Shown here: piece by piece, positions 35,606 through 43,071 of the stretch
Position numbering within the stretch: position 1 is the stretch's first letter
How the letters are laid out: every line of letters begins with the position of its first letter
DNA from: Halostella limicola
GTDB lineage: Archaea; Halobacteriota; Halobacteria; Halobacteriales; Natronoarchaeaceae
Assembly (NCBI RefSeq): GCF_003675875.1
Contig: NZ_RCDI01000003.1
Location: 434,001-498,000 of the forward strand
Length of the DNA stretch: 64,000 bases
Reading direction: 5' to 3'
Translations under genes and position numbers: made by a program
The notes under the pieces: model-generated
Databases searched by the model: none
Told to the model about the DNA's origin: nothing
Seen by the model: only the letters and a program-made list of their open reading frames with translations

Positions 35606-36373
35606 TCAGTTCCGGACGCGAACGATCCCCTGGTCCAGCACGCGGCTGTTGGGGACGATGAACTCCTCCTCGTCGTTCTCGATGTGCGTGACGAACACGT
35701 CGACCTCCTGGACGATCCCCTGGTGGTCGCCGATCCGCACGCTGTCGCCGATGCCGTAGGGCTGGTTGAGAAGGAGGTAGATCCCGGCCGCGCCGGACGC
35801 GAGGAAGTCCTTGAACGCGAGGCCGCCGAGGAAGACGAGGCCGAACACGTACACCGTGAGCAACACGTTCAGCGCGGTGGTGTTGACGCCGATCTGGCCG
35901 AGCGCGACCAGCGACGCGATGTAGAGGACGCTGTACTTGATGACCTTCGGTAGGAGGCTCACCTCGGGGAGCTTGATCCCCCGGAGGCGCTCGCTGACGA
36001 CGAGCTGGGCCTTGTCCGCGATGACGAATCCGACGATGAGAACGAGGGCGGCGATGAAAAGCTGCGGGACGAACTGCGTGACGCGGAGCCAGAACGTTTC
36101 GGCGTTGACCAGCTCCGCGATGTGGATCGCCGTCAGCACCGCTACGCCGTAGACGAACCAGGAGCTCAGGCGGGCGACGATGGTGACCGTCGACGTGCCG
36201 ATGCTCTGGGCCGTCCGCTCGAACGGCGTCCCCTCGACGGCGTCGGGGACGCCCGCGGCGGTCAGCAGGCGCTTGTTGAGCTTGCCGATGAGATAGCCGA
36301 GCAGGATACCGAGCGCGAGCACGGCGGCCGCCAGCGCCGCGGGCTGGTCGGTGAACAGGCTCCACTGGACCAT
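35606..36373 (-). CDS. mscS: Small mechanosensitive channel (MscS family)
   Basis: The 255-residue protein has three or four hydrophobic helices, a pore-lining Gly/Ala-rich segment (VFGLVFLGGLAFKDFLASGAAGIYL) and the MscS beta domain (YGIGDSVRIGDHQGIVQEVD, then FIVPNSRVLDQ). It should open under membrane tension to release solutes. Its ATG shares one base with the stop of dacZ (TGATG), so its translation is tied to the c-di-AMP synthase. Confidence 0.92.
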   Translation of the reverse strand: MVQWSLFTDQPAALAAAVLALGILLGYLIGKLNKRLLTAAGVPDAVEGTPFERTAQSIGTSTVTIVARLSSWFVYGVAVLTAIHIAELVNAETFWLRVTQFVPQLFIAALVLIVGFVIADKAQLVVSERLRGIKLPEVSLLPKVIKYSVLYIASLVALGQIGVNTTALNVLLTVYVFGLVFLGGLAFKDFLASGAAGIYLLLNQPYGIGDSVRIGDHQGIVQEVDVFVTHIENDEEEFIVPNSRVLDQGIVRVRN

Positions 36374-37185
36374 CAGTAGTCCTCCGGATCGAGTTCGAGT
36401 ACCAGTTCGCCCCCTTTGAACGCCCGCACGAGCCCGTCGCTCTCGCTCAGGACGACCGCCGTCGCGTTCGTGTCGCGCGTGACCGCGCCGCCGGCCATGT
36501 GACGTGCACCCAGCCCCTTCGGGATGTCGACGCCCTCGGCGGACGGCTCCAGATAGCGGTACGCCGAGACGATCTTCCCTGAGTCGCTGATGACGAACGC
36601 GCCGTCGAGCCGGGAGAACTCCTTGAGCATCACGTTCACGATGGGGTCGCCGACGTGGACGTGGGACTTCTCGAACGGGTTGTACGACAGCGGCCGGGAC
36701 TTGTTCATCACCTTGCCGGCGTCGCCGACGACGAACAGCGCGCCGACGGGCTTGCCCTTCTGTCCCTTCTTCCCGAGTTCGATGGCGAGTTCGAGCACCG
36801 CCCGGATGACGCTCGGGTCGGCGCGGGAGTTCGAGAACAGGTCGTAGATGCCCGACTCCATGTCCTCGTCCACCCGGACCCGCGACACCGTGTCGATGTC
36901 GTCGCCGAACATCGTCACGGCGCAGGTGACGACGTCGCCGTCCTCCAGCAGCCCCTGCTCCAGCGCCCCCTCGATGCCGAAGCGGATGCGCTCCGCGACC
37001 TCGTCGAACTCCAGCGGCAACTCCACGAACTCCTCCGCGCCGACGTCGTCCTCGTCGGAGACGACGAGCACCGGCACCTCCGACTCGGCGACGACCTCCT
37101 CGTAGTACGAGCCCGTCGGCGAGAAGAGGAGTATCGCGTCGACGTCCGACAGCAACTCCGCGAACAACTCGCTTGGCTCCGCCAT
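36373..37185 (-). CDS. dacZ: Archaeal diadenylate cyclase DacZ
   Basis: The 270-residue protein has a C-terminal DisA-N (DAC) domain with the catalytic DGA motif at 194-196 (SRLDGAFVISDSG) and the RHM form of the RHR motif at 228-230 (GLGARHMAGGAVTRD), matching archaeal DacZ, which makes cyclic di-AMP from two ATP. The N-terminal about 130 residues form a separate, pyruvate-kinase-C-like domain. ATG 37185 is preferred to an in-frame TTG at 37194. In Haloferax volcanii DacZ is essential and linked to osmoadaptation; pairing with MscS fits. Confidence 0.93.
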   Translation of the reverse strand: MAEPSELFAELLSDVDAILLFSPTGSYYEEVVAESEVPVLVVSDEDDVGAEEFVELPLEFDEVAERIRFGIEGALEQGLLEDGDVVTCAVTMFGDDIDTVSRVRVDEDMESGIYDLFSNSRADPSVIRAVLELAIELGKKGQKGKPVGALFVVGDAGKVMNKSRPLSYNPFEKSHVHVGDPIVNVMLKEFSRLDGAFVISDSGKIVSAYRYLEPSAEGVDIPKGLGARHMAGGAVTRDTNATAVVLSESDGLVRAFKGGELVLELDPEDY

Positions 37186-37284: not shown

Positions 37285-38127
37285 TCAGGTCAGGTCCGCG
37301 GTAACGGTCGACTCGACGAGCCGACCCAGCGGCGCTTCGAGGGTGTAGTCCGGCGTCTCGACGACGATGGGCGAGTCGCGGTCGACGTCGACGAAGCGGA
37401 GCGTCATCCGGTAGCCGCCGTCCTCGTCGATGGTCGCGGCCTCGCGCTGGCCCGTCGGCTCGTGGCGGGCCCACGCCGTCGCGCCGGCGGAGCTCGCGTC
37501 CGCGCGGCCCTGGATGACGTGCCCGAACGGCGTCACCGACAGGTCGGTCCCCGCCATCGGGTAGTCCCGGGAGTGCCACTCCCAGAACCCCTCGTCGATG
37601 GCGTACACCTCCTCGTAGCCCGCCTCGATGAGCGTCGCCGCCCGCATCCCCGACAGGTGGTGCGGGCACCCGCAGTAGAGGACGACGCGGTCGTCTTTCG
37701 GCCAGTCCGGCACCGGGTCGTTTTCGACGCCGTCCGGGGCGGTCGAGAGCACCGCTCCGTACACGTGCGAGGTGTCGTACTGCTCGGTGCCCCGCGCGTC
37801 GGCGAAGCGCGCTTCCCGCCGGCGGTACCAGTACTCGGCGACGTCTATCGGCACCAGCGGCACGTCGACGCCGCTCTGGGTCGTCGTCCCGAAGTCGTCG
37901 GTGTTCACCGACCGCTCCTCAGGCACCTCCTCGAACTCAGGCGGGAAGCCGTTCCGGGGGTTCTCGTTCGGCGGGAAGTCGCCGTTGATGTCGTAGTCGC
38001 CGCCCGCGGCGCTCGTTTCGCCCGCGCCGGCGTCCGGGCCGGCGGTCGTCCCGTCGTCCGAGTCGCCAAGACAGCCGGCGACGGCGGTCGTCGCCAGCGC
38101 GCTCGCGAGGAACGTTCGACGTTTCAT
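37285..38127 (-). CDS. Tat-exported rhodanese-domain lipoprotein
   Basis: The 280-residue protein starts MKRRTFLASALATTAVAGCLG, a Tat-style signal with lipobox and Cys19. After an Asp/Gly-rich linker it has a rhodanese domain (DVAEYWYRRREARFADARGT, then VVLYCGCPHHLSGMRAATLIEAG) in which the active-site loop contains CGCPHHLSG, with two cysteines. The C-terminal 80 residues form an additional beta domain. It is last in an operon with DyP-like, DUF7282-like and P19-like genes. It could move sulfur or act as a redox partner outside the membrane. Confidence 0.85.
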   Translation of the reverse strand: MKRRTFLASALATTAVAGCLGDSDDGTTAGPDAGAGETSAAGGDYDINGDFPPNENPRNGFPPEFEEVPEERSVNTDDFGTTTQSGVDVPLVPIDVAEYWYRRREARFADARGTEQYDTSHVYGAVLSTAPDGVENDPVPDWPKDDRVVLYCGCPHHLSGMRAATLIEAGYEEVYAIDEGFWEWHSRDYPMAGTDLSVTPFGHVIQGRADASSAGATAWARHEPTGQREAATIDEDGGYRMTLRFVDVDRDSPIVVETPDYTLEAPLGRLVESTVTADLT

Positions 38128-38166
38128 TATTCCGAGTGTAGTGGTCGCGTCACGAACTTCTTTCGG

Positions 38167-39465
38167 TCACTCGGGTCGCGGCGTCGGCAGCGCCCGGTGA
38201 CGCCGCGGCGGCACCAGGAAGTTGCCGCGGTGCTTGACGAAGATGTACTCCAGAATGCCGTTGTTCACGCGCTGTCTGATCGTCGGGGAGTCGACGTCTG
38301 CGCCGTTCATCGCCTCCCGGACGCGCTCGAACTCCCCGATCCCCCGCTGGAGCGAGGGGAAGTGGAGGCTCGACTCGCCCCCGTCGGTCGACTCGAAGTG
38401 CCGACGGAGCAGCAAGGGTTCGCCGCTGTCGTCGCGGTTCGCCGCGGCCATCTTCTGCGCGTGGCCGATCTGGCCGACCTCGCGGGCGTGGCCGGGGATC
38501 CGGTCGGTGAGATCCGGGGTGACGCCGCTGTGGTCTCCGAGGTTGTGTCCGGCGCCCTCGACCCGCTCCTCGGCGGCGTGAACGGGGCTGAAGGTCTTCC
38601 TGACGCGTTCCTCGAAGTCGTTCTCGACGTACCAGTCCTGCAGGCGCTGGCGGATGGTCGCGAGGTGCTTCGTCGCGCCGCCGGCGAACGGCCCCTCCTC
38701 GATCGTCACCCGGTCCTCGCTCGCCTGGTTCCCGACGAAGCCGGCCTTGAACCCCATGAACAGCGGCGACTCCTCCGGAACGTCGGCGTCGTCGGGGATC
38801 CCCTTCACGTCCTGACGCTCGGCGGGCATCCCGTCGCCGACGAAGCCGGTCCGCCGGTCGTCGACGGAGAGCGCGTCCGTCAGCGGTGTGGACAGCCGGA
38901 CGCCGTTCGCCGTCGCGTTCCCCGCGAGCGCCTCCTCGGCTTCGAGCACGACGGCCGCGCGGTCGCTCGCGAGGTGGAGGACCGCGTCCTGCTCGTCGAG
39001 GGTCGGCTCCTCGAAGTCGGAGAGGCGGCGCGGCGGCGGCAAGTCGACGCTCCCGGGGAGCGGGTCCTCGAACCGGTCGAAGTACGCCGGCGAGTACCCG
39101 ATCGAGTAGACCAGCCCCTCGTTCGAGCGCTCGTACGCCCGGTCGAGCGTCGACAGCGCCGTCTCGACCGTCTCCCGCGCGCCCTCGTCCGGCGGCCCCT
39201 CCCCGGGGAGCGTCAGGAACAGCAGGATCTGGTGGCGCGGCAGCACGGTGTTGCCGTGCTCGTCCTCGGGCACCAGGTCGTTCCAGGCGTGCTGGCGCTC
39301 CGGGAGCGTCGAGGGGTCGTCCGCGCCCGACGGGACGGACGGGACCGACGTCGTCTCGGTGCCACGGTCGTCGCCGTCCTCGTCGAGGCAGGCCGCGAGC
39401 GCGCTCGTCCCGCCCGCGGCGACGGCGGCCTTCAGGACCTCGCGGCGGGACCGGTCGGCAGTCAT
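38167..39465 (-). CDS. Degenerate DyP-type peroxidase-like Tat lipoprotein
   Basis: The 432-residue protein has a Tat motif (SRREVLKAA), lipobox with Cys26, and two ferredoxin-like halves typical of DyP heme peroxidases. Supporting segments: GFKAGFVGN at 238-246 where DyPs have GxxDG, possible heme-ligand His at 326 or 335, LLLRRHFEST (351-360), then FPSLQRGIGEFERVREAMN and the C-terminal ILEYIFVKHRGNFLVPPR. The catalytic Asp is Ala241, so peroxidase activity is doubtful; heme binding, transport or iron release is possible. Confidence 0.75.
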   Translation of the reverse strand: MTADRSRREVLKAAVAAGGTSALAACLDEDGDDRGTETTSVPSVPSGADDPSTLPERQHAWNDLVPEDEHGNTVLPRHQILLFLTLPGEGPPDEGARETVETALSTLDRAYERSNEGLVYSIGYSPAYFDRFEDPLPGSVDLPPPRRLSDFEEPTLDEQDAVLHLASDRAAVVLEAEEALAGNATANGVRLSTPLTDALSVDDRRTGFVGDGMPAERQDVKGIPDDADVPEESPLFMGFKAGFVGNQASEDRVTIEEGPFAGGATKHLATIRQRLQDWYVENDFEERVRKTFSPVHAAEERVEGAGHNLGDHSGVTPDLTDRIPGHAREVGQIGHAQKMAAANRDDSGEPLLLRRHFESTDGGESSLHFPSLQRGIGEFERVREAMNGADVDSPTIRQRVNNGILEYIFVKHRGNFLVPPRRHRALPTPRPE

Positions 39466-39520
39466 CGTCCCCTCCTTCGGCCGCTCGGAGGATGTCGGTT
39501 CTGGTGCGGTTCTCGAACGG

Positions 39521-40504
39521 TCATCGCCGCCGCACCCCCAGCGCCACGGCCGCGAGCACGGCGGCGACGGTTCCGACGACGCCGACGGCGGGCATACTCG
39601 TCCCCTCGCCGCCGGAATCCTCGCCGTCCGCGTCGTCGCTGCCCTTCGCCGGGCCGTCGTTCGTCGCGTCGCCAGTCGAGTCCGTCGTCGCAGTGGGTGT
39701 GTTCACCCCGACGTCCAGCGACCCGTTACTGCCGCCGAGGGTCGCCTGGATCCGCGACCGCACGGGGTCGTCGCCGACGACGACCGGTTCGTCCCCCTCG
39801 CCGTAGGCGCCGTCGCCGTCGTCGCGGACGAGGCTCACCCAGAGGTAGACGGTCTCGCCGTCCTCGCCGAGCGCGTCGGCGTCGACCGGCACCTCGACGT
39901 CGGTGTGGTTGCCCGCCGCGACGGCGCTGTGGCCGACGACCTCGCCGGGTTCGCCGTCCGCCTCCGCCCGGACCACCACGTAGCCGTCCCGGTCGAGTTC
40001 GACGCGGGGGACCGTCACGGCGTCCTCGACGCCGTGGCCGGAGAACTTCGTCGCGACGAGGGTGACGGGGGCGTCGCCCTTCTCGACGGCGAACGACGAC
40101 GACGCGACGCTCCCGAAGGCCGACACCGGCGTGTCGACCGACGGGTCGAACTCGTCGCCCCCCTCCGCGTCCCGGTGCAGTACCGCGACGAGCGGGGCGG
40201 CCCCCTCTTGCGACGCCCACCAGTCCTCGTCCGTCTGGACGGTGACGCCGCGGTGCCCGCCCTGGTCCAGACGGACGTGGCCGACCGGATCGCCGCGCTG
40301 GCTCCCCTCGTGGAGCACCAGATAGCCGCCGTCGAGGATGAACAGGGACTCGACGACGACCGACCCGTCCGCCGACACCTGCGAGCGCGCCGTGACGTGG
40401 TTCCCGTGGCCGCCGACCGGCCCGATGGCGGCGCCGAGCAGCGGCGCGACCAGCAGGGCCGCGAGCGTGAGGGCGGCGACCGCCCTCGCGGTCCGCCGGG
40501 TCAT
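39521..40504 (-). CDS. Secreted DUF7282-like protein with two beta domains and C-terminal anchor
   Basis: The 327-residue protein has a Sec signal (VAALTLAALLVAPLLGAAIG), two related beta domains (about 35-145 and 155-260, each with a GG/DGYxVx start, a PVGHVRLDQGGH or VVGHSAVAAGNH strand and a long acidic loop), a Thr/Gly/Asp-rich linker and a C-terminal membrane helix followed by RRR. The anchor resembles archaeosortase-type tails but lacks a clear PGF. Its start overlaps the upstream gene's stop by four bases. Confidence 0.72.
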   Translation of the reverse strand: MTRRTARAVAALTLAALLVAPLLGAAIGPVGGHGNHVTARSQVSADGSVVVESLFILDGGYLVLHEGSQRGDPVGHVRLDQGGHRGVTVQTDEDWWASQEGAAPLVAVLHRDAEGGDEFDPSVDTPVSAFGSVASSSFAVEKGDAPVTLVATKFSGHGVEDAVTVPRVELDRDGYVVVRAEADGEPGEVVGHSAVAAGNHTDVEVPVDADALGEDGETVYLWVSLVRDDGDGAYGEGDEPVVVGDDPVRSRIQATLGGSNGSLDVGVNTPTATTDSTGDATNDGPAKGSDDADGEDSGGEGTSMPAVGVVGTVAAVLAAVALGVRRR

Positions 40505-41580
40505 TCGAGCGTCAGGTCGACGGTCGGCGTTTCGAGGAACGCCCGCTCGTACCCCTGATGGCGGGCGACCTGCGGCGGGACCTCGACGGCGAGCGACAGG
40601 TCGTCGCCCGCCGCGGCGTCGTCGACGAGTGCGCCGTAGTGGTAGTCCAGTTCGGAGTCGAGCGTCCGCTCGAACGGACCCTCGTACAGCGTCTCGCCGT
40701 CCCGCGATAGCGACCCCGACAGGCCCATCTCCGGCAGGAGCAGCGAGTTGTACCGCGTCCGGGCGGAGACGGCGACGTACGTGCCGTCGCCGAAGCGCTC
40801 GTCGGACAGCGTCGTCACGACGTACGTGACGCCGTCCGCCGTCGCCGACCCGCGGACCGTTCCCGGCAGCGACTCCGGCGGCGCGGCGCGGCCGATGGGC
40901 AGCGCCTCCATCTCCATCGGCTGGACGGTGCCGGGGTCGCCCCCCTCGTCGACGTCCTGACTGGTGAGTCGGTCGCGCTGGTCAGCCGTGAAGTCGAACT
41001 CGACGGTCGCGCTCGCCGGGTCGGCGAATTGCCCCTCGAACGCGCCCGTCCGGCGGGTGGACATCCCGCCGACGCTCACGTCGACGGCGTACGTGCCGTC
41101 GCCGTCGAGCGTGAAGTTCGCGCCGTAGTGAAAGCCCATACGCTGGGAGACCATGGGGTAGATGACCTCCTCCGAGACGAGCTCTCCGTCCCGGGTTATC
41201 TCGACCGACAGCCCCGTGTCCGGCAGGATGGTCTCCGTCTCGGGGTCCCACACCGACGCCATCAGGTGCAGGGAGTGTTCGTCGAGCATCGGCTGCTCGG
41301 ACCGTTCGGTGCCGGTCACCGTCCAGAAACGGTGCGGGAACGTGTAGAACACGGCGAACCGGTAGTCACCGCTGGTCGCAGTTCCCGCGCGGAGCATGTT
41401 CTCGACGAACGGCTGCACGTAGACGCCGTCGGCGTCGGGCGCGTCGCTCGTCGTCCGTTCCGACCCGTCGCTTTCCGTCGTACCGCCGGTCGTCGCGTCG
41501 TCGCTGCCGACGACGCCGTCGAGACAGCCGGCGAGGAGGGGGACCGATGCGCTGGCGGCGAGGTACTTCCGACGATTCAT
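40501..41580 (-). CDS. P19/Tp34-like metal-binding Tat lipoprotein with duplicated domain
   Basis: The 359-residue protein starts MNRRKYLAASASVPLLAGC (lipobox Cys19). Residues about 70-197 resemble the iron-transport-associated P19/Tp34 domain: LDEHSLHLMASVWD with His and Met ligands, then YPMVSQRMGFHYGANFTLDG. Residues 240-359 repeat the pattern (SLLLPEMGLSGSLSRDGE, then DYHYGALVDD at 312-321), so the domain is duplicated. Copper or iron binding on the cell surface is likely. It leads the operon; the next gene overlaps by four bases. Confidence 0.72.
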   Translation of the reverse strand: MNRRKYLAASASVPLLAGCLDGVVGSDDATTGGTTESDGSERTTSDAPDADGVYVQPFVENMLRAGTATSGDYRFAVFYTFPHRFWTVTGTERSEQPMLDEHSLHLMASVWDPETETILPDTGLSVEITRDGELVSEEVIYPMVSQRMGFHYGANFTLDGDGTYAVDVSVGGMSTRRTGAFEGQFADPASATVEFDFTADQRDRLTSQDVDEGGDPGTVQPMEMEALPIGRAAPPESLPGTVRGSATADGVTYVVTTLSDERFGDGTYVAVSARTRYNSLLLPEMGLSGSLSRDGETLYEGPFERTLDSELDYHYGALVDDAAAGDDLSLAVEVPPQVARHQGYERAFLETPTVDLTLE

Positions 41581-41754: not shown

Positions 41755-43071
41755 ATGAACCGATCGAGACGTACGTTCCTGCAAGCGAGCGGTACGGCCG
41801 CCCTCCTCGGACTCGCCGGCTGTACCGGTGTCCTCCAGAGCGACGACGGCCTCGACGAGGACGGCCCGCCCGGGTACACGACGTGGCTGTACGACCCGAA
41901 GGACCTCCTCGACGTCGACACGCGCGGGTTCGCCTCCTACGACGTCCAGAGCGTCATGGAGCAGCGCGAGAACCTGCCGGAGGACCCGTTTCAGGGCATC
42001 GAGGACGCGAACGAGGAGATCGAGGCCGTCGACCTGGAGGAGGTCGAGCGCCTCTCGCTCGTCGGCGGCGGCGAGACCGACTACAGCCGGTACGGCCTCT
42101 CCTTCGCGGTCGAGGGGTCGTTCGACGCCGCGGCCATCGGCGAGGAGATCGAGTCCGAGAGCGACGGCCAGGAGTACGAGACTGACACGCACGAGGGCTA
42201 CGACCTCTACTACGGCGAGCAGGAAAGCGACTACTCGAACGAGTCGTTCGCCGTCGCGGTCGACGGCGACGCCGTCGTGTTCGGGATGGTCGACGACGAG
42301 TCGGTGACGGGCCGCGCCGCGGCCGAGGCGATGATCGACGCCGACGCCGGGTCGCGGGCCGGCTACTACGGCGAGAGCGAGTACGCACGGATCCTCGTCG
42401 ACGCCATGGGCGAGGCGACGTTCGTGATGGGCGCGGAGTTCGACCTCGGGTCGGCCGTCCGCGACCGCATGGAGGACGACCGCGTCCGTGACCTCGCCGA
42501 CGGACTGCACGCGGCCGGGGTGGCCGGCACCCTCGGCGGCGAGACGAGCGACTACGAGTTCGTGCTCGCCTACGAGGCGGACGCCGAGATACCGACCGAG
42601 AGCGCGCAGGAACTGGTCGACGAGGCGCGCGAGCAGTCGCCCGAGGCGTTCGAACACGTCGAGGAGGTCGACGTTCGGAGCGGCGACCGCACTCTCACGC
42701 TCGTCGCGACCGTCGACAGCGAGGAGCTGTTCGACGACTTCTCGGGGCTCATGGGCGGGATGACGGGGACGGCGTCCGGCGGCGCGACCGCATCCATCCC
42801 GCAGGTGTCGTTCCGCTTCGACTGGGCCGAGGCCGACGAGGGCGGCCGGGTCACCATCACCCACGAGGCGGGCGACAGCGTGGCGGCGGACCGCCTCTCG
42901 ATCGGCGGCGACGTCGTCTCCACGACCGAGTGGAGTTCGACTAGCGACGGGATGGTACAGGCCGGTAGCTCCGCCGAGGCGACCGTCGAATCCGGCGGGC
43001 AGGTCTGGGTCGAGTGGTCGGGCGACGACGGCCAGGGCGCTCTGCTCGCGACCTCGCAGAACCCCTACTAG
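41755..43071 (+). CDS. Tat lipoprotein with pilin-like C-terminal beta domain
   Basis: The 438-residue protein has a Tat signal (NRSRRTFLQASG) and lipobox LAGC. Residues about 30-310 form an alpha/beta region with a repeated-looking pattern (GLSFAVEGSFDAAAIGEEIE, then VMGAEFDLGSAVRDRM). The last about 95 residues (PQVSFRFDWAEADEGGRVTI, THEAGDSVAADRLSIGG, VWVEWSGDDGQ) resemble the beta domain of archaeal type IV pilins, here without the pilin signal helix. The gene is divergent from the metal-lipoprotein operon. Function unknown. Confidence 0.7.
   Translation: MNRSRRTFLQASGTAALLGLAGCTGVLQSDDGLDEDGPPGYTTWLYDPKDLLDVDTRGFASYDVQSVMEQRENLPEDPFQGIEDANEEIEAVDLEEVERLSLVGGGETDYSRYGLSFAVEGSFDAAAIGEEIESESDGQEYETDTHEGYDLYYGEQESDYSNESFAVAVDGDAVVFGMVDDESVTGRAAAEAMIDADAGSRAGYYGESEYARILVDAMGEATFVMGAEFDLGSAVRDRMEDDRVRDLADGLHAAGVAGTLGGETSDYEFVLAYEADAEIPTESAQELVDEAREQSPEAFEHVEEVDVRSGDRTLTLVATVDSEELFDDFSGLMGGMTGTASGGATASIPQVSFRFDWAEADEGGRVTITHEAGDSVAADRLSIGGDVVSTTEWSSTSDGMVQAGSSAEATVESGGQVWVEWSGDDGQGALLATSQNPY

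Follow-up and report, generated by a model that had tools for sequence, protein, structure and literature searches.

A DUF7405-DUF7350 lipoprotein pair within a haloarchaeal surface gene cluster: a putative metal-redox module, possibly for copper

Within a 64,000-nucleotide stretch of DNA from the haloarchaeon Halostella limicola (contig NZ_RCDI01000003.1, positions 434,001 to 498,000; the whole stretch is called the window in the following), a cluster of four genes encodes a set of exported proteins. Two of these are a tandem P19-like lipoprotein (DUF7350) and a lipoprotein with the fold of dye-decolorizing peroxidases (DyPs; DUF7405). The conserved haloarchaeal unit is this pair and not the foursome. 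We read the cluster as an extracytoplasmic metal-redox module with copper as its most likely cargo, built from parts which bacteria use for iron, and give this reading about an even chance of being right.

The cluster architecture

In the order of transcription, the cluster comprises the following genes:
40501-41580, minus strand: P0004 (359 amino acids), the first gene, a twin-arginine translocation (Tat) lipoprotein with tandem beta-sandwich domains of the P19/FetP type (Iron_transport PF10634 and DUF7350 PF24041)
39521-40504, minus strand: P0003 (327 amino acids), a surface protein with a signal peptide, two DUF7282 domains (PF23951) and a C-terminal transmembrane (TM) anchor
38167-39465, minus strand: P0002 (432 amino acids), a Tat lipoprotein with a DyP-type peroxidase fold (DUF7405 PF24152)
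37285-38127, minus strand: P0001 (280 amino acids), a rhodanese Tat lipoprotein with a C-terminal beta domain, a Halostella-specific member of the cluster

A preliminary description of this DNA had proposed four open reading frames on one transcript, with all products exported and three of them being lipoproteins. The reading frames were confirmed at exact coordinates, with a four-base overlap followed by gaps of 55 and 39 bases. An RR motif and a lipobox cysteine are present in P0004 (C19), P0002 (C26) and P0001 (C19), and P0003 has a hydrophobic signal peptide as well as a C-terminal TM tail, which resembles PGF-CTERM at 15 bits, below the cut-off of 24.5 bits. With their tight same-strand spacing the genes have the look of a single transcript, and the same four-gene order, with dacZ adjoining, is present in all four Halostella genomes examined. 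Since this order is identical in all four, the arrangement is not a product of chance. A scan for bacterial-type promoters and terminators was uninformative, the host being an archaeon.

The family assignments of that description (P19, DUF7282, DyP-like and rhodanese) are upheld by Pfam profiles and, for P19 and DyP, by fold comparison in addition. In hidden Markov model searches PF10634 and Rhodanese scored above their cut-offs, and the DyP relationship emerged from profile-profile alignment, fold and Pfam matches in relatives.

The P19-like protein and its metal site

P0004 matches the Iron_transport/P19 model PF10634 with 23.8 bits (cut-off 21), and DUF7350 is called by Pfam as well. A profile built from 49 relatives and searched against the PDB with hmmsearch gave 13 matches, all 13 of which belong to FtrA, P19, FetP, Tp34 or HftA. 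For the AlphaFold2 (AF2) model (predicted local distance difference test, pLDDT, 88.5) the top 27 Foldseek matches are all members of the P19 family, and domain 1 (residues 60-202) aligns with FetP at a VIA Z of 14.7 and 2.5 Å over 134 residues. According to hhalign, the second half of the protein forms another P19-like domain, which is the weaker of the two (HYGA...RHEGYE). Beyond the P19 family the next fold neighbor is the copper-resistance protein CrdA (VIA Z 10.0 and 9.9), after which unrelated rows follow at Z of 7.6 or less.

The iron site of P19 is formed by Glu3, Glu44, Asp46 and Asp92 (PMC9174327), and PDB titles record copper-bound E44Q, M88I and D92H variants of P19. The equivalent residues of DUF7350 are encoded as follows:
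41128-41268, minus strand: codons of the invariant H105, M107, M143, M148 and H151, corresponding to H42, E44, M88, D92 and H95 of P19 in the FetP/FtrA alignments

The copper-site residues His42, Met88 and His95 are kept as H105, M143 and H151, each in 113 of 113 DUF7350 proteins. Both iron-site acids tested are replaced throughout, Glu44 by Met107 and Asp92 by Met148 (each 113/113), where the equivalence of Glu44 is taken from the alignments with FtrA and with the P19 of the own genome and that of Asp92 depends on an adjoining one-residue insertion; an acidic iron site is thus missing. The position equivalent to Asp46 (109) is occupied mainly by S, T, V or A. For the P19 alignment the FetP sequence was used from its record, while a rough P19 consensus served only to locate FetP on plasmids. 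Judged by the residues, the methionine and histidine replacements would create a site of the kind that favors copper.

A second P19-like protein of the same genome is encoded at L251:4416-4955 (plus strand); it has a single domain, carries HLE and HHYG motifs and is without an export signal.

The DyP-like protein

For P0002 itself Pfam calls DUF7405 and no DyP model. Its AF2 model (pLDDT 89.7) retrieves DyPs in all of the best Foldseek rows (E 1.4e-16, probability 1.00), with a VIA Z of 26.8 and 2.9-3.5 Å over 291-320 residues, so that the protein is predicted to adopt the double ferredoxin-like fold of DyPs. Furthermore, profile-profile alignment (hhalign) of DUF7405 with ten bacterial DyPs gives an E value of 1.4e-11, and two more proteins with DUF7405 score above the cut-offs of Pfam DyP models, namely a paralogue of the own genome (PF20628, 27 bits) and another member (PF04261). 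Some members are already labelled "Dyp-type peroxidase domain-containing protein" by NCBI; therefore, the relationship between DUF7405 and DyP is in itself not new.

The positions that matter for catalysis in DyPs are:
38743-38745, minus strand: codon of A241, in the place of the catalytic aspartate of the DyP GXXDG motif (here GFKAG), from the hhalign alignment to EfeB
38461-38463, minus strand: codon of H335, equivalent of the proximal heme ligand, within the region of the proximal histidine of EfeB; histidine in 154/154
38404-38406, minus strand: codon of R354, equivalent of the distal arginine; arginine in 154/154

The catalytic aspartate is found in none of the 154 distinct DUF7405 members, where alanine (82), serine (66), threonine (3), asparagine (2) or glycine (1) takes its place. 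A description of such an absence in all members together with an invariant histidine and arginine has not been met with so far. With the proximal histidine and the distal arginine kept, DUF7405 should bind heme. As to the distal residues, the aspartate is critical in one DyP and the arginine, not the aspartate, in others (PMC8197335). Because their roles differ among DyPs, an activity of DUF7405 is possible, though unproven.

A canonical DyP was also looked for elsewhere in the haloarchaeal class, where PF04261 matches one genome only, inside its DUF7405 gene. The own genome encodes two further DUF7405 paralogues (G000:C3:334464 and G000:C4:572670; loci L002 and L003), which share 57% and 42% identity with the copy in the window; the former is paired with DUF7350.

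Conservation across the haloarchaea

DUF7405 is present in 128 and DUF7350 in 124 of 145 haloarchaeal genomes, and among 14 named control genomes both occur only in Haloferax volcanii. For at least 77 of the 150 DUF7405 places listed, a listed DUF7350 place is found no more than 4 kb away, where 0.45 would be expected. Direct reading of 161 DUF7405 loci, which combine two overlapping sets (the first drawn across genera, the second picked by similarity to the query), revealed DUF7350 within 5 kb in 110 of them. In the set drawn across genera its commonest position is downstream of DUF7405 on the same strand. The extra members of the cluster are rarer near DUF7405, with the DUF7282 protein in 26 and the rhodanese in 3 of the 161 loci. 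The view of the four genes as one unit stands for Halostella, and across the haloarchaea it is the DUF7405-DUF7350 pair that is conserved. A text search of the literature found no paper using the names DUF7405 or DUF7350.

In about ten loci (L088, L120, L125 and others) the pair is located inside a menaquinone gene cluster with MenB-, MenA-, MenC- and MenE-like genes. An HTH_HVO_0163 regulator and a small DUF7471 membrane protein also recur as a pair near DUF7405, in 36 and 35 of the 161 loci, respectively (for example L121:6992-7836, plus strand), and represent a candidate regulator of the system.

The DUF7282 protein and the rhodanese

The DUF7282 protein adds a possible second metal site:
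40397-40408, minus strand: HGNH, the predicted mature N-terminus of the DUF7282 protein, a candidate N-terminal copper site

An N-terminal histidine is a known copper-binding device, as in CopC-type proteins and in the histidine brace of lytic polysaccharide monooxygenases. In the linked homologues the predicted mature protein begins with HxNH; HxxH stands at this start in 24 of 25 and directly after an AxA signal-peptidase site in 23 of 25; in the window protein VGG precedes HGNH in place of AxA. In a rough look, no HxNH motif was seen in the other DUF7282 domains of the own genome, which are part of large surface proteins.

P0001 scores 38.3 bits against the Pfam model Rhodanese (cut-off 22.2), and its active loop reads YCGCPHHLS, with the Cys-x-Cys of YCGCPHH conserved in all relatives found. 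The idea that the rhodanese replaces a permease was not borne out. The rhodanese is an addition at the level of Halostella, and the sole case found beyond this genus is on a plasmid of Halobaculum sp. XH14, directly before a DUF7350 gene, which is followed by a major facilitator superfamily (MFS) gene.

A candidate membrane partner

Elsewhere the pair recurs beside a multi-TM protein of about 460 amino acids with roughly 8-11 hydrophobic segments, whose family is present in 99 of 145 genomes. Two members, aligned with relatives in alignment A4, are:
L260:8000-9382, minus strand: multi-TM family member
L269:7459-8886, minus strand: multi-TM family member

In L260 numbering His361, His411 and His419 are invariant, His419 being present in 96% of a larger set. 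Of 150 places listed for this family, no fewer than 38 have DUF7405 or DUF7350 no more than 4 kb away, where about 1.6 would be expected, and in 30 of these cases the distance is at most 1 kb. No relative was found in Pfam, NCBIfam or the PDB, and the genome of the window has only a distant member, located elsewhere. The multi-TM protein is a candidate membrane partner of DUF7405 and DUF7350. Since the pair recurs beside it in other genomes, the earlier statement that no permease is encoded is true of the window and perhaps not of the whole system.

Copper or iron: the genomic context

SCO1-SenC genes are found no more than 4 kb from DUF7350 in 19 genomes, which represent seven genera, and at such a distance from DUF7405 in six genomes, with 0.32 expected in either case. 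In Haloferax gibbonsii the genes are arranged as DsbA, thioredoxin, CcdA-like, DUF7405, SCO1, DUF7350 and MFS. Among the DUF7350-SCO loci read, six of seven have a thioredoxin and a CcdA-like gene beside DUF7350 (the CcdA assignment being made by eye and from a sub-threshold DsbD_TM match), and in five of them an SCO1-type lipoprotein was called in between; NosL is near one such locus. A DsbA-like thioredoxin gene is near 32 and an MFS gene near 33 of the 161 DUF7405 loci, with no metal motifs evident in the MFS neighbor. The combination known from Sco, ECuC and DtpA, that is SCO1 beside DyP and metal-binding genes, is present in Haloferax-type and some other loci and not in the window.

Hvo_1242, a Tat lipoprotein that has been verified as such and whose tag is three away from that of DsbA (Hvo_1245; PMC2945643), may belong to the Haloferax counterpart of this locus. 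With LSGC at C26, its lipobox differs from that of DUF7405 in other Haloferax species (LSAC at C27), so that the identity was not established.

The uptake of iron or heme is the first alternative to be weighed. Here, the P19-like protein would bind iron, the DyP-like protein would release iron from heme or oxidize Fe(II), and the import would be left to an unrelated permease of the MFS, ABC or multi-TM type. In bacteria, the counterparts of both proteins take part in iron uptake that depends on FTR1 (PMC6083913; PMC9174327), periplasmic thioredoxins also belong to FetMP-FetABCDEF, and the MFS and multi-TM genes recurring near DUF7405 and the pair would fit such an import. On the contrary, the FTR1 permease (PF03239) was found in none of the 145 haloarchaeal genomes including the own one, with four control genomes positive. 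The methionines in place of Glu44 and Asp92 and the SCO1 linkage also speak against iron, and the study of the Hfx. volcanii proteome under iron starvation does not mention these families in its main text. We regard iron uptake as unlikely; if it applied, P19 would be used here independently of FTR1, which would likewise be new. The emphasis on iron in the preliminary description is not supported in view of the missing FTR1, the methionines in all DUF7350 proteins and neighbors of the copper and thiol type (SCO1, thioredoxin, CcdA-like, DsbA), while leaving the metal open (iron, heme or copper), as it also did, was right in our judgment.

Several observations weigh against copper as the cargo. 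Bacterial P19 proteins bind copper and yet import iron. The fourth copper ligand of P19, His132, is absent from domain 1; H341 of domain 2, present in 112 of 113 proteins (one gap), might supply it. No SCO1 match (PF02630) was found in the window or in the own genome, and most SCO1 links concern DUF7350 copies away from DUF7405 (19 versus 6 genomes). A copper P-type ATPase as partner was hinted at by two plasmid loci, but is nearby in only 3 of 161 and was rejected.

Proposed mechanism and remaining alternatives

The copper reading draws on the methionine/histidine site, the fold neighbor CrdA, the missing FTR1, the SCO1, thioredoxin, CcdA-like, NosL and DsbA-like neighbors, the HxNH of the DUF7282 proteins and the Streptomyces precedent. 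In this reading, DUF7350 would be the surface protein that binds Cu(I)/Cu(II). Using heme and peroxide, and driven by its arginine as in some B-type DyPs, DUF7405 might then alter the redox state of copper or of proteins, a role modelled on the Streptomyces enzyme DtpA, which acts on Cu(I) alongside Sco and ECuC (PMC8197335). The DUF7282 protein may offer a second surface metal site via its mature N-terminal HxNH. The rhodanese would contribute extracytoplasmic thiol or persulfide chemistry, a job that neighboring DsbA, TlpA/CcdA and SCO1 might do interchangeably elsewhere. Finally, cuproproteins or a membrane protein encoded outside the cluster would receive the metal.

A second alternative is a redox defense of the envelope, in which a heme protein and methionine-rich, thiol-active lipoproteins would scavenge peroxide, hypochlorite and other oxidants at the surface, with metal being secondary. 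The DyP fold with its retained heme histidine and arginine, the DsbA, thioredoxin and rhodanese partners and an MsrA-like gene, identified by sequence in one locus, fit to this. It is harder to reconcile with the conserved methionine/histidine set, which coincides exactly with the P19 metal site, and with the SCO1 linkage; furthermore, the loss of the distal aspartate would be odd for a dedicated peroxidase, because this residue is critical in some DyPs (PMC8197335). Such a defense appears rather improbable to us.

It is very improbable that DUF7405 is a non-catalytic binder or transferrer of heme which serves, with the P19-like protein and CcdA/thioredoxin, the assembly of cytochromes or heme-copper oxidases. 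The loss of the aspartate in 154/154, the CcdA-like, thioredoxin and SCO1 neighbors and the menaquinone-biosynthesis-type genes beside the pair in ten loci speak for such a role. Against it stands the invariant distal arginine, which is essential in some B-type DyPs and argues for catalysis; furthermore, no oxidase subunits were identified adjoining the pair.

Extended to the whole class, the copper reading would describe a haloarchaeal surface copper system consisting of a methionine/histidine double P19, an aspartate-less DyP that oxidizes copper or thiols, a set of exchangeable thiol partners (SCO1, TlpA/CcdA, DsbA or rhodanese) and, as the membrane component, the multi-TM protein with its invariant histidines. 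This wider proposal is possible, and we hold it to be doubtful. Haloarchaea depend on copper proteins, among them halocyanins and heme-copper oxidases. If the copper reading is true, P19 and DyP would be seen to switch metal, haloarchaea would have an extracytoplasmic copper pathway, and nature would provide a test of DyP function in the absence of the catalytic aspartate. Both DUF7405 and DUF7350 are present in most sampled haloarchaeal genomes, yet lack a functional name in Pfam.

Adjoining genes

Next downstream on the strand of the cluster, a DacZ-type diadenylate cyclase (36373-37185, minus strand) and an MscS-type channel (35606-36373, minus strand) overlap each other. The two follow the cluster in 4/4 Halostella genomes, with a c-di-AMP gene and an osmotic gene next to each other. 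On the other side, a divergent Tat lipoprotein of about 438 amino acids without a clear family (41755-43071, plus strand) is located next to the cluster in every Halostella genome that was read.

Comparison with known systems

FtrABCD and FetMP-FetABCDEF resemble the haloarchaeal system in their extracytoplasmic P19-fold protein and in the thiol-redox partners found near many loci. In contrast, the haloarchaeal side has tandem P19 domains, methionines for the iron-site acids, a DyP partner and lipid-anchored proteins, with no FTR1 found in the class. EfeUOB and FepABC, with their DyP-type EfeB, likewise have a DyP-fold protein that is exported by Tat and encoded in an operon for metal handling, whereas the haloarchaeal cluster has neither EfeU (FTR1) nor an EfeO gene and its DyP-like protein is a lipoprotein of a family lacking the GXXDG aspartate throughout.

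CrdA, the copper resistance determinant of Helicobacter pylori, is the nearest fold to domain 1 outside the P19 family and was solved with silver. It differs by its single domain and has 14% identity; we know of no DyP partner for it.

In Streptomyces, DtpA, Sco and ECuC combine an exported DyP with copper-binding proteins (PMC8197335), and SCO1-family genes are likewise present in some haloarchaeal loci. Here, a P19-fold protein replaces ECuC and the DyP is without its aspartate, and in Halostella the cluster lacks SCO1 and has a rhodanese together with a DUF7282 protein. By analogy, the Streptomyces DtpA-Sco-ECuC system is the closest working model for the haloarchaeal cluster.

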